A stretch of 64,000 bases of DNA, taken from assembly GCF_005080885.1 (NCBI RefSeq), contig NZ_CP034864.1, positions 535,245 to 599,244 of the forward strand, given 5' to 3'. The DNA comes from Buchnera aphidicola (Macrosiphoniella sanborni). Its GTDB lineage: Bacteria; Pseudomonadota; Gammaproteobacteria; Enterobacterales; Enterobacteriaceae. The position numbers and the translations under genes were made by a program. The notes beneath the pieces are model-generated. The model did not search any database and was not told where the DNA came from. It saw only the letters and a program-made list of their open reading frames with translations. Of the stretch, positions 57,865-62,732 are shown one piece after another. The stretch's first letter is position 1. The number at the start of each line of letters is the position of its first letter.

Positions 57865-58007
57865 ATGAAACATTCCTATAATTAATTATAAATATCTATC
57901 TTAATATTATTTATCATTTATAATATTAATCTCTATTATAATATCATTAATTTTGATGTTCAAAACTTAAAAATTTGTTATTTTAATCGATTATATAAAG
58001 AAAAATA

Positions 58008-58255
58008 ATGTATAAAAATAAAAAAAAAATACTTCTATAAATTTTAATAAAAAAAAAAATAAAAATAAAAAATTCTATTTATTATATTTTATTTTTATAT
58101 GCATGTTTATTTTTTTTGTTTTTTCTAATTTACATCTTTACTTTTCTTCTGAACAAAAAAATATAAAAATTATTCATGAAAATAAAAATGATGATTTTAA
58201 ACCTTCTCAAATAACAGAAAAATGGAAATATATTAAAAAATTAAAAAATTTATAG
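58008..58255 (+). CDS. ftsN: Minimal FtsN cell-division activator, start frameshifted at a poly(A) run
   Basis: In E. coli ftsN sits directly before hslVU. Here the frame ending at TAG 58253-58255 encodes a basic tail (KKKNKNKK), one membrane segment (residues YLLYFIFICMFIFFVFS) and a short periplasmic part, KPSQITEKWKYIKKLKNL. That part matches the essential FtsN segment KPEERWRYIKELE with W-x-Y-x3-L intact. The Gln-rich linker and SPOR domain are absent. The only suitable ATG (58008) is one base out of frame across a run of 10 A (58020-58029), so the product needs slippage of one A. A pseudogene is the alternative. Confidence 0.6.
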
Positions 58256-58993: not shown

Positions 58994-60325
58994 ATGTCTG
59001 ATATGACTCCTCCTCAAATTGTTTCTGAACTTGATAAATTTATTATCGGTCAAGACAAAGCAAAGAGAGCTGTATCTATTGCATTAAGAAATCGTTGGCG
59101 TCGAATGCAATTAAATAATGAACTACGTCATGAAATTACTCCAAAAAATATTTTGATGATTGGCCCTACAGGAGTAGGTAAAACAGAAATTGCAAGACGT
59201 TTAGCTAAACTAGCAAATTCTCCTTTTATTAAAGTTGAAGCTACTAAATTTACTGAAGTTGGATATGTTGGGAAGGAAGTAGATTCAATTATCCGAGATT
59301 TAACTGATGCAGCTATTAAAATGATTCGAATTAAAAACATTGAAAAAAATAAAATTCGAGTAGAAGAAATAGTAGAAGAAAAAATATTAGATGTTCTAGT
59401 CCCAAGACCGAATAAAAATTGGACAGATAATGAAAAAAATGAAAGTCTTTTAAAAACTATTCAAATATTTCGGAAAAAATTAAGAGAAGGTTTATTAGAT
59501 AATAAAGAAATAGAAATTAATTTACTATCAACAACTATGGGTATTGAAATTATGGCTCCTCCAGGTATGGAAGAACTAACTAGTCAATTGCAATCTTTAT
59601 TCCAGAATTTAGGAGGACATAAAAAAAACAGAAGACGTCTCAAAATTAAAGATGCTGTAACATTATTAACAGAAGAAGAAGCAACTAAATTAATAAATCA
59701 AGAGGAAATTAAAAAAGAAGCAATTCATGCAGTTGAACAAAATGGTATAGTGTTTATTGATGAAATTGATAAAATATGTAAAAGAGGTGATTCATCTGGT
59801 CCAGATATTTCACGAGAAGGAGTTCAAAGAGATTTATTACCTTTGGTTGAAGGATGCACTGTATCAACTAAACATGGAATGGTTAAAACAGACCATATTT
59901 TATTTATTGCTTCTGGTGCTTTTCAAACATCTACTCCTTCTGACTTGATCCCAGAATTACAAGGACGTCTTCCTATTAAAGTAGAATTACAAGCTCTCAC
60001 TGTAGATGATTTTGAAAAAATTTTAACAGAACCTAGAGCGTCTATTACAACACAATATAAAGCACTGATGGAAACCGAGGGTGTAAATATTCTTTTTACA
60101 AAAGAAGGGATACGAAATATTGCAGAAGCCGCTTGGAAAGTGAATGAATCTATGGAAAATATTGGCGCTCGTAGATTACATACTATATTAGAAAAATTAA
60201 TGGAAGATATATCATTTAATGCAACTAAACATAAAGGTAATAAAATTGAAATTGATGCAAAATATGTAGGAGAGCATTTAGATCAATTAGTATCTAATGA
60301 AGATTTAAGCCGTTTTATCTTATAA
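58994..60325 (+). CDS. hslU: ATPase subunit HslU of the HslUV protease
   Basis: The AAA+ unfoldase feeding HslV. It has 443 residues, as in E. coli. The N-terminus is [20 protein letters not shown]. Walker A is [17 protein letters not shown], and the pore loop region is [11 protein letters not shown]. The intermediate domain spans about residues 110-245, Walker B is [10 protein letters not shown], and sensor 2 is [13 protein letters not shown]. It ends DLSRFIL, the tail that docks into HslV. Confidence 0.98.
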
Positions 60326-60425: not shown

Positions 60426-60453
60426 TTGAAAAAAAAAAATAAAACCTTACTAT
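60426..60453 (+). promoter_or_regulatory. Putative sigma-32 promoter of ibpA with an 11-A run
   Basis: TTGAAA (60426-60431), a 13-base spacer, then CCTTACTAT (60445-60453), against the heat-shock consensus CTTGAAA - 13 to 15 - CCCCATNT. Eleven consecutive A bases (60429-60439) span the end of the -35 box and the spacer. In pea aphid Buchnera a one-A deletion in the ibpA promoter poly(A) run changes heat response. The -10 match is weak; the position is apt. Confidence 0.55.
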
Positions 60454-60564
60454 TATAAAGTAAAAGATATTTTAATTTTCTTATAAGTAAATATTTTAGA
60501 AAATATTAATATTTTAATTAATATTGACCATTTATCTAATACAAAATATTTTAAGGAGCTTATT

Positions 60565-61047
60565 ATGTCTTATCGTTCTCTTTCATTTATTCCTAATTTT
60601 AATGATAATAATATTTTTTCAAATAGATTTAATCAAATTGATAAAATGTTTAGCACTTTAACAGGAGAAAAACCTATTTCTGATACACCAAAATATAATC
60701 TATTTCAAATAAATGAAACAGAGTATCAGTTAATATTAAGTATTCCTGGATTTAAAGAAGAAGAATTAGACATATCTGTACATAATAATCAATTATCTAT
60801 TCAAGGAAAAAAACAAGAATCAAAAGAAAATCATGATAAAAAAATAAGTAGTTGGTTACATCAAGGTATAATATTTAATGATTTTTCTGTAAGTTTTAAT
60901 TTAGATCATAAAATTAAAGTAAAAAAAGCAGAATTATCTTTAGGTTTATTAAAATTAGATTTTGAATGTAATATTCCTGAAGAAGAAAAACCAAAAAAAA
61001 TTGCTATTAATATTCCAAAAGATACAAAAAAAATTGATCAAAAATAA
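60565..61047 (+). CDS. ibpA: Small heat-shock protein IbpA
   Basis: Binds unfolding proteins and keeps them ready for refolding. It has 160 residues (E. coli IbpA 137), with an extended C-terminus. The alpha-crystallin domain runs from about residue 40 to 140: YQLILSIPGFKEEELDISV, NQLSIQGKKQ and LGLLKLDFECNIPEEEKPKK. Ribosome site AAGGAGCTT, among the strongest in the window. Only one ibp gene is present. Confidence 0.96.
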   Translation: MSYRSLSFIPNFNDNNIFSNRFNQIDKMFSTLTGEKPISDTPKYNLFQINETEYQLILSIPGFKEEELDISVHNNQLSIQGKKQESKENHDKKISSWLHQGIIFNDFSVSFNLDHKIKVKKAELSLGLLKLDFECNIPEEEKPKKIAINIPKDTKKIDQK

Positions 61048-61092: not shown

Positions 61093-61127
61093 AAAATCAT
61101 TGTACTAAAAAAAAGTACAATGATTTT
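61093..61127 (+). terminator. Terminator after ibpA
   Basis: A 13-base-pair perfect stem AAAATCATTGTAC / GTACAATGATTTT (61093-61105 with 61115-61127) with a nine-base A-rich loop, 45 bases after the ibpA stop and 27 bases before fpr. The U residues lie within the 3' arm. It probably separates ibpA heat-shock transcription from fpr. Confidence 0.7.
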
Positions 61128-61154: not shown

Positions 61155-61913
61155 ATGAATCCATGGATTATTGCAAATGTTTTAGAAATTAAAAAATGGA
61201 CAAATAATTTATTTAGTCTTATTTTAAGAGCTGATATTGAACCATTTCATGCTGGACAATTTACTAAACTATCTTTATATGATATTAACAATAATAACAA
61301 AAAAATTCAAAGAGCATATTCCTATGTTAATTCTCCTAGTGAAAAAAATATAGAAATTTACATTGTTCGTGTTAAAAATGGAAAAATGAGTAATTTGTTA
61401 TATAATTTAAAATGTGGTGATAAAATCTTTATTAAGAAAAAATCATTTGGTTTTTTTATTATTAATGAAATACCAGATTGTAAAAATTTATGGATGTTTG
61501 CTACAGGAACTGCTATTGGTCCGTATTGTTCAATTTTAAAAGAAGGGAAAAATATTGATAGATTTAATAATATTATATTAGTTCATGCAGTTCGATATTA
61601 TAATGAATTAACTTATTTACCTTTAATGAAAGAATTATATAAAAAATATAATGGCAAACTTAAAATTCAAACAATTACTAGTCGAGATAAAAGCAACAAA
61701 GATTCGTTAACTGGAAGAATACCTATTTTATTACAAAATAATTCTTTAGAAAAAAAAATTGGGATACCAATAGAATCTCATACTTCACATATCATGTTAT
61801 GTGGTAATCCTGCTATGATACAAGATACATATTTGTTTTTAAAGAATTATAGAAATATGAAAAAACACTTACGTCGTTCACCAGGTAACATTACAATAGA
61901 ACATTATTGGTAA
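61155..61913 (+). CDS. fpr: Ferredoxin/flavodoxin NADP+ reductase
   Basis: Moves electrons between NADPH and flavodoxin or ferredoxin through FAD. It has 252 residues (E. coli 248). FAD motif: [16 protein letters not shown] domain: [36 protein letters not shown] and [18 protein letters not shown]. The C-terminus TIEHYW matches E. coli TAEHYW with its terminal aromatic. Encoded after hslVU-ibpA; in E. coli fpr is also close to hslVU. Confidence 0.96.
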
Positions 61914-62732
61914 AAAATTTTATAATAACTTGATAGAACTAATATTATTTAGTTAATTGTTTTATAATTAAAATAATGAATTCAAGTAGTATAATATTTT
62001 AAAAAAGTTAACTTATTTAAAAAAAATTCAAAATTAAATCAAATATTAAAAATGATAATCATTTATGTTCAAGATTAATAATATCATATTTGTTGTTTTT
62101 AAATAGAAAAAATATTCATTTATGCATACAAATCGTTTCCTAACTTGATCTCTTTTAAAAAAATCAAATTCTTGTAATATATAAAAATATTTTAAATAAA
62201 TTAAAAAGCAGTTTTTTATTTTAAAAAATAATAAATAAATCTATATTTATTTTTTAAGTGAAGTCTTATATATATTAAGTTATATATAAAATAACGTTAA
62301 ATAATAATATTAATTAATTTATATTTTTTCACAAAAAATAAGATAGTTTAATAAATATACTGAGATATCTTATGAGTCTTTACAATTGACTTATAAAATA
62401 TATATCTAAAAAAATTTTATCAATATGTCTTAATATAAAAAAATTTTTTTATATCAATGCAATTTAATATTATTAAATATTCATCTATTTTCATCAAGAT
62501 TTTTTATAAAATATAAAAAATTAATACTATTACACATAGTAAATTATTTATGAAAATATTAAGTTTATTTTTTTAAATACTATAACATTAGTATTTCGAT
62601 CTTTAATTCTTTTGTTAATATAACACAATATTAGAAATAATTTTTAACATGATCATAAAATACTGAATATGGTTATTGTAGTTATTAGATTTATAAATAT
62701 TTTTTTATATATATTTTTTTTTAGAATTTATT
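61914..62732. other. 819-base gap between fpr and coaD
   Basis: Mostly featureless A+T. The only stretch with protein-like composition is a 55-codon minus-strand frame without a start codon (62046-62213). No promoter could be fixed for coaD. Confidence 0.5.
62046..62213 (-). pseudogene. Possible C-terminal relic of an unidentified gene
   Basis: A stop-free minus-strand stretch of 55 codons ends at TAA (62046-62048) and is closed by a stop just upstream. It includes LQEFDFFKRDQVRKRFVCIN then EYFFYLKTTNM, with more Arg, Asp, Gln and Val than the surrounding noise. There is no plausible start codon. I cannot match it to a family. It may be the tail of a lost gene or chance. Confidence 0.25.

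Follow-up and report, generated by a model that had tools for sequence, protein, structure and literature searches.

The closest described system is the ibpA promoter of pea aphid Buchnera, for which published accounts give a wild-type length of 13 bp and a length of 12 bp in the heat-sensitive mutant (PMC8466206), the mutation being a one-base deletion in the promoter homopolymer that is rare in nature (PMC4357604). One survey of field pea aphids recorded the 13-bp form in 129 of 129 insects (PMC8466206). The ibpA gene is heat-induced in the Buchnera of both S. graminum and A. pisum, and in both symbionts transcription from ibpA continues through fpr (PMC1440324). Degnan et al. (2011, PMC3164680) reported near-perfect conservation of the sigma-32 site of ibpA among four Buchnera, and the -35 element of this site corresponds to the E. 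coli sigma-32 -35 consensus, TTGAAA (PMC6687850). The E. coli K-12 ibpAB promoter (TTGAAA-13-ACCCATTT) shares TTGAAA, the 13-nt spacer and a C-rich -10 box with the promoter described here, but it has no homopolymer and leads into a ROSE_2 RNA thermometer (100 bits), an element that is not detectable in the Buchnera scanned.

The DNA analysed here (the window) is a 64-kb stretch of a 622-kb Buchnera chromosome that is accompanied by two plasmids. The leucine plasmid most resembles the one carried by the Uroleucon ambrosiae symbiont (85.7%), and the nearest relatives of the genome in a 35-taxon tree are G016 and G019. The promoter is contained in the 239-nt gap between hslU and ibpA, and fpr comes after ibpA (Table 1). 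Direct reading of the block at 60426–60453, TTGAAAAAAAAAAATAAAACCTTACTAT, gives TTG, 11 A, TAAAA and CCTTACTAT, with the TTG of the -35 box at 60426–60428 and exactly 11 A after it. This reading confirms the 11-A tract that had been described as abutting TTGAAA, with a -10 box 13 nt further on. The ibpA start codon, ATG, lies at 60565 and is preceded by the Shine-Dalgarno sequence AAGGAG (60553–60558). The encoded protein matched the IbpB and IbpA models at 1.9e-25 and 1.1e-21, respectively, both under the curated cut-off, and the gene pairs one-to-one with a counterpart at this locus in each of 32 Buchnera. Compared with the pea aphid promoter of Dunbar et al. 2007 and Burke et al. 2010, as described in PMC8466206 and PMC4357604, the gene, its place, the A-run inside the spacer and the 13-nt wild-type length are all alike in the window, whereas the aphid host is a different one, no 12-nt allele was seen and the two promoters were compared by published length. 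Downstream, sequence similar to the hairpin of the ibpA–fpr gap was also seen in other Buchnera loci, despite the reported read-through into fpr.

Table 1 Coordinates of the ibpA promoter and its surroundings, as positions within the window.
Feature	Position	Strand	Remarks
hslU, upstream neighbour	58994..60325	+	TIGR00390, 706 bits
-35 box TTGAAA of the ibpA sigma-32 promoter	60426..60431	+	identical in 32/32 Buchnera with intact ibpA
11-A homopolymer	60429..60439	+	first three As double as the AAA of TTGAAA
13-nt spacer AAAAAAAATAAAA, TTGAAA to CC	60432..60444	+	direct reading; equals the wild-type pea aphid length
-10 box CCTTACTAT	60445..60453	+	C at 60450 extra, common to 10/32 genomes
Predicted 5' leader	60459..60564	+	putative start site near 60459
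ibpA, Hsp20-family small heat-shock chaperone, 160 aa	60565..61047	+	profile matches and locus
14-bp hairpin, ibpA–fpr gap	61093..61127		AAAATCATTGTAC...GTACAATGATTTT
fpr, downstream gene	61155..61913	+	reported read-through from the ibpA promoter (PMC1440324)

Taken alone, the motif is no more than chance would supply; a relaxed pattern, TTGAA-N13..16-CCYYAY, occurs 8 times in the genome versus 5 times in the reversed control. The ibpA promoter motif exceeds chance because of its position and its conservation. TTGAAA is found at the same spot between hslU and ibpA, 81–139 nt ahead of the start codon, in every one of the 32 Buchnera with an intact ibpA, and the frequency of the majority base is 0.84–0.93 in the 30 columns that span -5 to +24 relative to the TTG, compared with 0.53–0.72 in the flanking blocks. 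The element is the same as that of Degnan et al. (2011, PMC3164680), whose four taxa are here extended to 32 genomes together with a comparison of length against sequence. The gene for sigma-32 itself, rpoH, is present (TIGR02392, 409.6 bits against a cut-off of 323.1). The original prediction of a heat-shock promoter of ibpA is supported by the -35 box, spacing, place and conservation and by the presence of rpoH. Its further claim, that the spacer holds an A-run like that of pea aphid Buchnera and that the spacing partly depends on this run, holds up as well. The promoter is of an ordinary, well-known kind, here in another host lineage, and we infer that in this species it is recognised by sigma-32 and its A-run is subject to slippage.

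Other heat-shock promoters of the genome were consistent with this assignment. The ibpA promoter carries the TTGAAA -35 box typical of sigma-32 promoters, and the 13–14 nt spacer of such promoters was found for ibpA (13), dnaK (TTGATG-13-CCCCATCT), groES (TTGAAA-14-CCTTATAT) and one of the two grpE copies (TTGAAA-13-CCTTATAA), the last three having ordinary spacers without an A-run. A separate oddity was noticed in one of the two grpE genes (L109, G000:C1, near 271200), which displays tandem GAACACAAT near its start; the repeat encodes EHN-type repeats and is in part masked as N. Among the ibpA homologues of 12 other genera of the family, TTGAAA is followed by a 13-nt spacer in 9 and a 14-nt spacer in 2, and one (G125) showed no such ibpA promoter. 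Their -10 boxes contain C (CCCCATAT, CCTTATAT, CCCTATAT, CCATATAT and others), and their spacers are mostly not homopolymers, as in CGTCACTAAGTGA. We infer from these sequences that the ibpA spacing is old and that the A-run is a later product of AT-rich drift.

Within Buchnera, 29 of 32 genomes have a distance of 13 nt from TTGAAA to CC (or the aligned base), and the remaining three (G007, G008 and G030) have 14 nt. A 12-nt spacing was found in none of the 32 Buchnera with an intact ibpA, a count based on one assembly per species, and such species-level constancy is compatible with variation inside species. The run itself is less uniform: it is exactly A11 in 17 of the 29 genomes with 13-nt spacing, and across all 32 it forms an unbroken stretch of 11–14 As in 20 and is interrupted by G, T or C in 12. 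The fewest changes needed on the tree were three for spacing, always to 14, versus nine for the intact or broken state of the A-run. Since spacing has changed only three times against nine for the run, and never to 12 nt, this pattern argues that purifying selection acts on length, which is contrary to what a reversible switch would show. On this sequence comparison, then, the length of the promoter spacer is under purifying selection. The A-run appears dispensable because it is broken in 12 of the 32 Buchnera and because the related genera keep the spacing mostly without a long A-run.

As a control, the length of each A/T run within 40 kb around ibpA was compared at its orthologous place in 29 genomes; these comparisons share ancestry and hence are not independent. 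Non-coding A/T runs of at least 11 nt are rare in this region (0–3 per 40 kb, the ibpA run counted). For runs of at least 11 nt, the median share of comparisons in which length was kept was 21% for non-coding runs and 46% for coding runs, compared with 86% for ibpA. None of 19 non-coding runs of at least 11 nt, and one of 52 of at least 10 nt, was as constant as that of ibpA. At 80–85% identity, length differed in 72% of non-coding runs versus 20% for ibpA, and some of the ibpA differences are alignment noise, because direct reading gives 13 nt in 29 of 32 genomes. The next best kept run of the same genome, an 11-A tract at 58049 (62%), lies inside a decaying small gene. A phase-variable promoter keeps its repeat while the length of the repeat readily changes; between the species compared here, conservation applies to the length rather than to the repeat.

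These results suggest that the element is very probably a sigma-32 promoter of ibpA whose length is held by selection, with the A-run as a tolerated weak point rather than an evolved switch, and three other readings were weighed against it. The A-run could be conserved for itself, as a stiff, bent A-tract that aids polymerase binding beyond its role as spacer. All 29 genomes with 13-nt spacing have A at block positions 4–7, 13 and 14, and substitutions fall in the middle of the run (positions 8–12), but the spacing is held by unrelated spacers such as CGTCACTAAGTGA in related genera and 12 of the 32 Buchnera have an interrupted run, so that we consider this reading unlikely. The element might instead serve vegetative transcription as a weak sigma-70 promoter (TTGAAA-16-TACTAT), either alone or as part of a dual promoter, with the heat-shock role secondary. 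This arrangement matches at 9 of 12 positions; however, the region yields such scores by chance, a sigma-70 scan of it having found 10 matches against 10.1 expected. The conserved bases moreover take in the CC of the sigma-32 -10 box, the 13-nt CC distance is kept across genera with differing spacers, and ibpA is heat-induced in two Buchnera (PMC1440324), all of which renders a sigma-70 reading quite improbable. The thermal-tolerance switch of the original prediction, an A-run retained for useful slippage between heat-tolerant and heat-sensitive (cool-favoured) states, is highly improbable and unsupported by the comparison between species: the run sits in the spacer as in the pea aphid polymorphism (PMC8466206, PMC4357604), is a pure 11–14 A run in 20 of 32 genomes and has no counterpart in the other sigma-32 promoters of this genome, but the window has the 13-nt wild-type length, spacing is 13 (29 genomes) or 14 (3 genomes) and never 12 and has changed less often than the run (3 versus 9), the promoter is kept in 12 genomes despite a broken run, other non-coding runs are far more variable, and all 129 field pea aphids of one survey had 13 bp (PMC8466206).

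An extra C within the -10 box is, as read from the aligned genomes, a new detail. The form CCTTACTAT (or CCCTACTAT) is present in 10 of 32 genomes, including that of the window, and CCTTATAT in most others. Alignment on the downstream TATGAAA (CCTTA-C-TATGAAA versus CCTTA-TATGAAA) identifies the difference as an inserted C, which requires a minimum of three changes on the tree. The window sequence CCTTACTA agrees with the E. coli -10 consensus CCCCATAT (CCCCATWT) at only 3 of 8 positions, a point against the sigma-32 reading; agreement is 3–4 of 8 in genomes with the extra C versus 5–7 of 8 in those without it, other Buchnera ranging overall from 3 to 7. The insertion shifts TAT by one base relative to TTGAAA, whereas the CC distance stays at 13. 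The group with the extra C takes in Uroleucon and Acyrthosiphon symbionts, the A. kondoi Buchnera (G002) among them, and pea aphid Buchnera may share it. Published ibpA primers did not single out a pea aphid symbiont in the genome set, the best fit having 7 mismatches in total. If pea aphid Buchnera does share the extra C, the harmful 13-to-12 deletion would restore the ancestral TAT distance and not the CC distance, and CC would be the position that counts. It is thus conceivable, though rather doubtful, that the CC distance is what sigma-32 measures and that the weakened -10 box makes the extra-C group sensitive to slippage.

The predicted leader folds better than shuffled sequences (z -2.3), with AAGGAG (60553–60558) paired with UUUUCUU (60476–60482). 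No ROSE or other Rfam element was found in the window or in the leaders of 20 relatives, and the Rfam scan of these relatives returned nothing beyond sub-threshold noise from a microRNA model, elsewhere in the loci. In several Buchnera clades the 5' end of the leader is complementary to the Shine-Dalgarno sequence (AGAAACUUUUUU with AAAAAGGAGUUUUUU; AUAAAGUUUCUU with AAGGAGCUUUAU; window, L002–L030). The duplex between the two exceeded shuffles in 10 of 32 genomes (p < 0.05), with a mean z of -1.05 versus -0.08 for other genes. An RNA thermometer in the ibpA leader is nevertheless not claimed: the pairing of leader and Shine-Dalgarno sequence in the window itself was no better than in shuffles (z 0.25), and a test of cognate against swapped leaders between clades was not significant (p 0.22). 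A hairpin masking the ribosome site of ibpA, or a simple RNA thermometer, is possible as a weaker lead from the sequence.

Some lineages have lost the gene. In G017, ibpA is wrecked by nine stops and the promoter block is lost, while in G018 and G024 ibpA is deleted between hslU and fpr and the promoter block is lost too; the three losses are separate events on the tree. In the G017 pseudogene (L035, L038), promoter and Shine-Dalgarno sequence were both seen to be decayed. A fourth genome without ibpA, G029, has no full-length HslU match either. The hosts of the ibpA-less Buchnera (L035 and L038 for G017, L039 for G018, L040 for G024) are possibly heat-sensitive.

Two decayed regions were observed near the locus. 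Upstream of hslV, at 58005–58255, a small reading frame running from MYKNKKK... to ...EKWKYIKKLKNL is broken by a frameshift around two A-runs, at 58020 (10 A) and 58049 (11 A), and an intact-looking version is present in G014; going by E. coli gene order, we presume it to be perhaps an ftsN remnant. Roughly 820 bp of non-coding, very AT-rich DNA separates fpr from coaD (61914–62732), at a place where other Buchnera have yjeA. This stretch is probably an eroded yjeA, which is a pseudogene in S. graminum Buchnera (PMC1440324).

The following mechanism may be proposed for the ibpA promoter. Polymerase carrying sigma-32 would bind TTGAAA together with the 5' half of the -10 box, which is rich in C, and would require a distance of 13, or at most 14, nt between them. 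AT-biased mutation would have made much of the Buchnera spacer an A-run and thereby prone to slippage. Shortening to 12 nt would weaken heat induction, as shown by others in the pea aphid, and selection would hold the spacer length fixed, the run being tolerated as a weak point. Because spacing is conserved across species, the A-run is better read as such a weak point than as an evolved switch.

The pea aphid ibpA promoter is the textbook case of one symbiont base altering host heat tolerance. Across the group, the comparison points to selection that keeps the spacing and lets the spacer sequence drift. Slippage is then probably no adaptation but a hazard to which AT-rich genomes are repeatedly exposed, and aphids whose symbionts carry an interrupted run, for example A. 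kondoi (AAAAAAAGAAA), would be predicted to yield 12-nt mutants less often.
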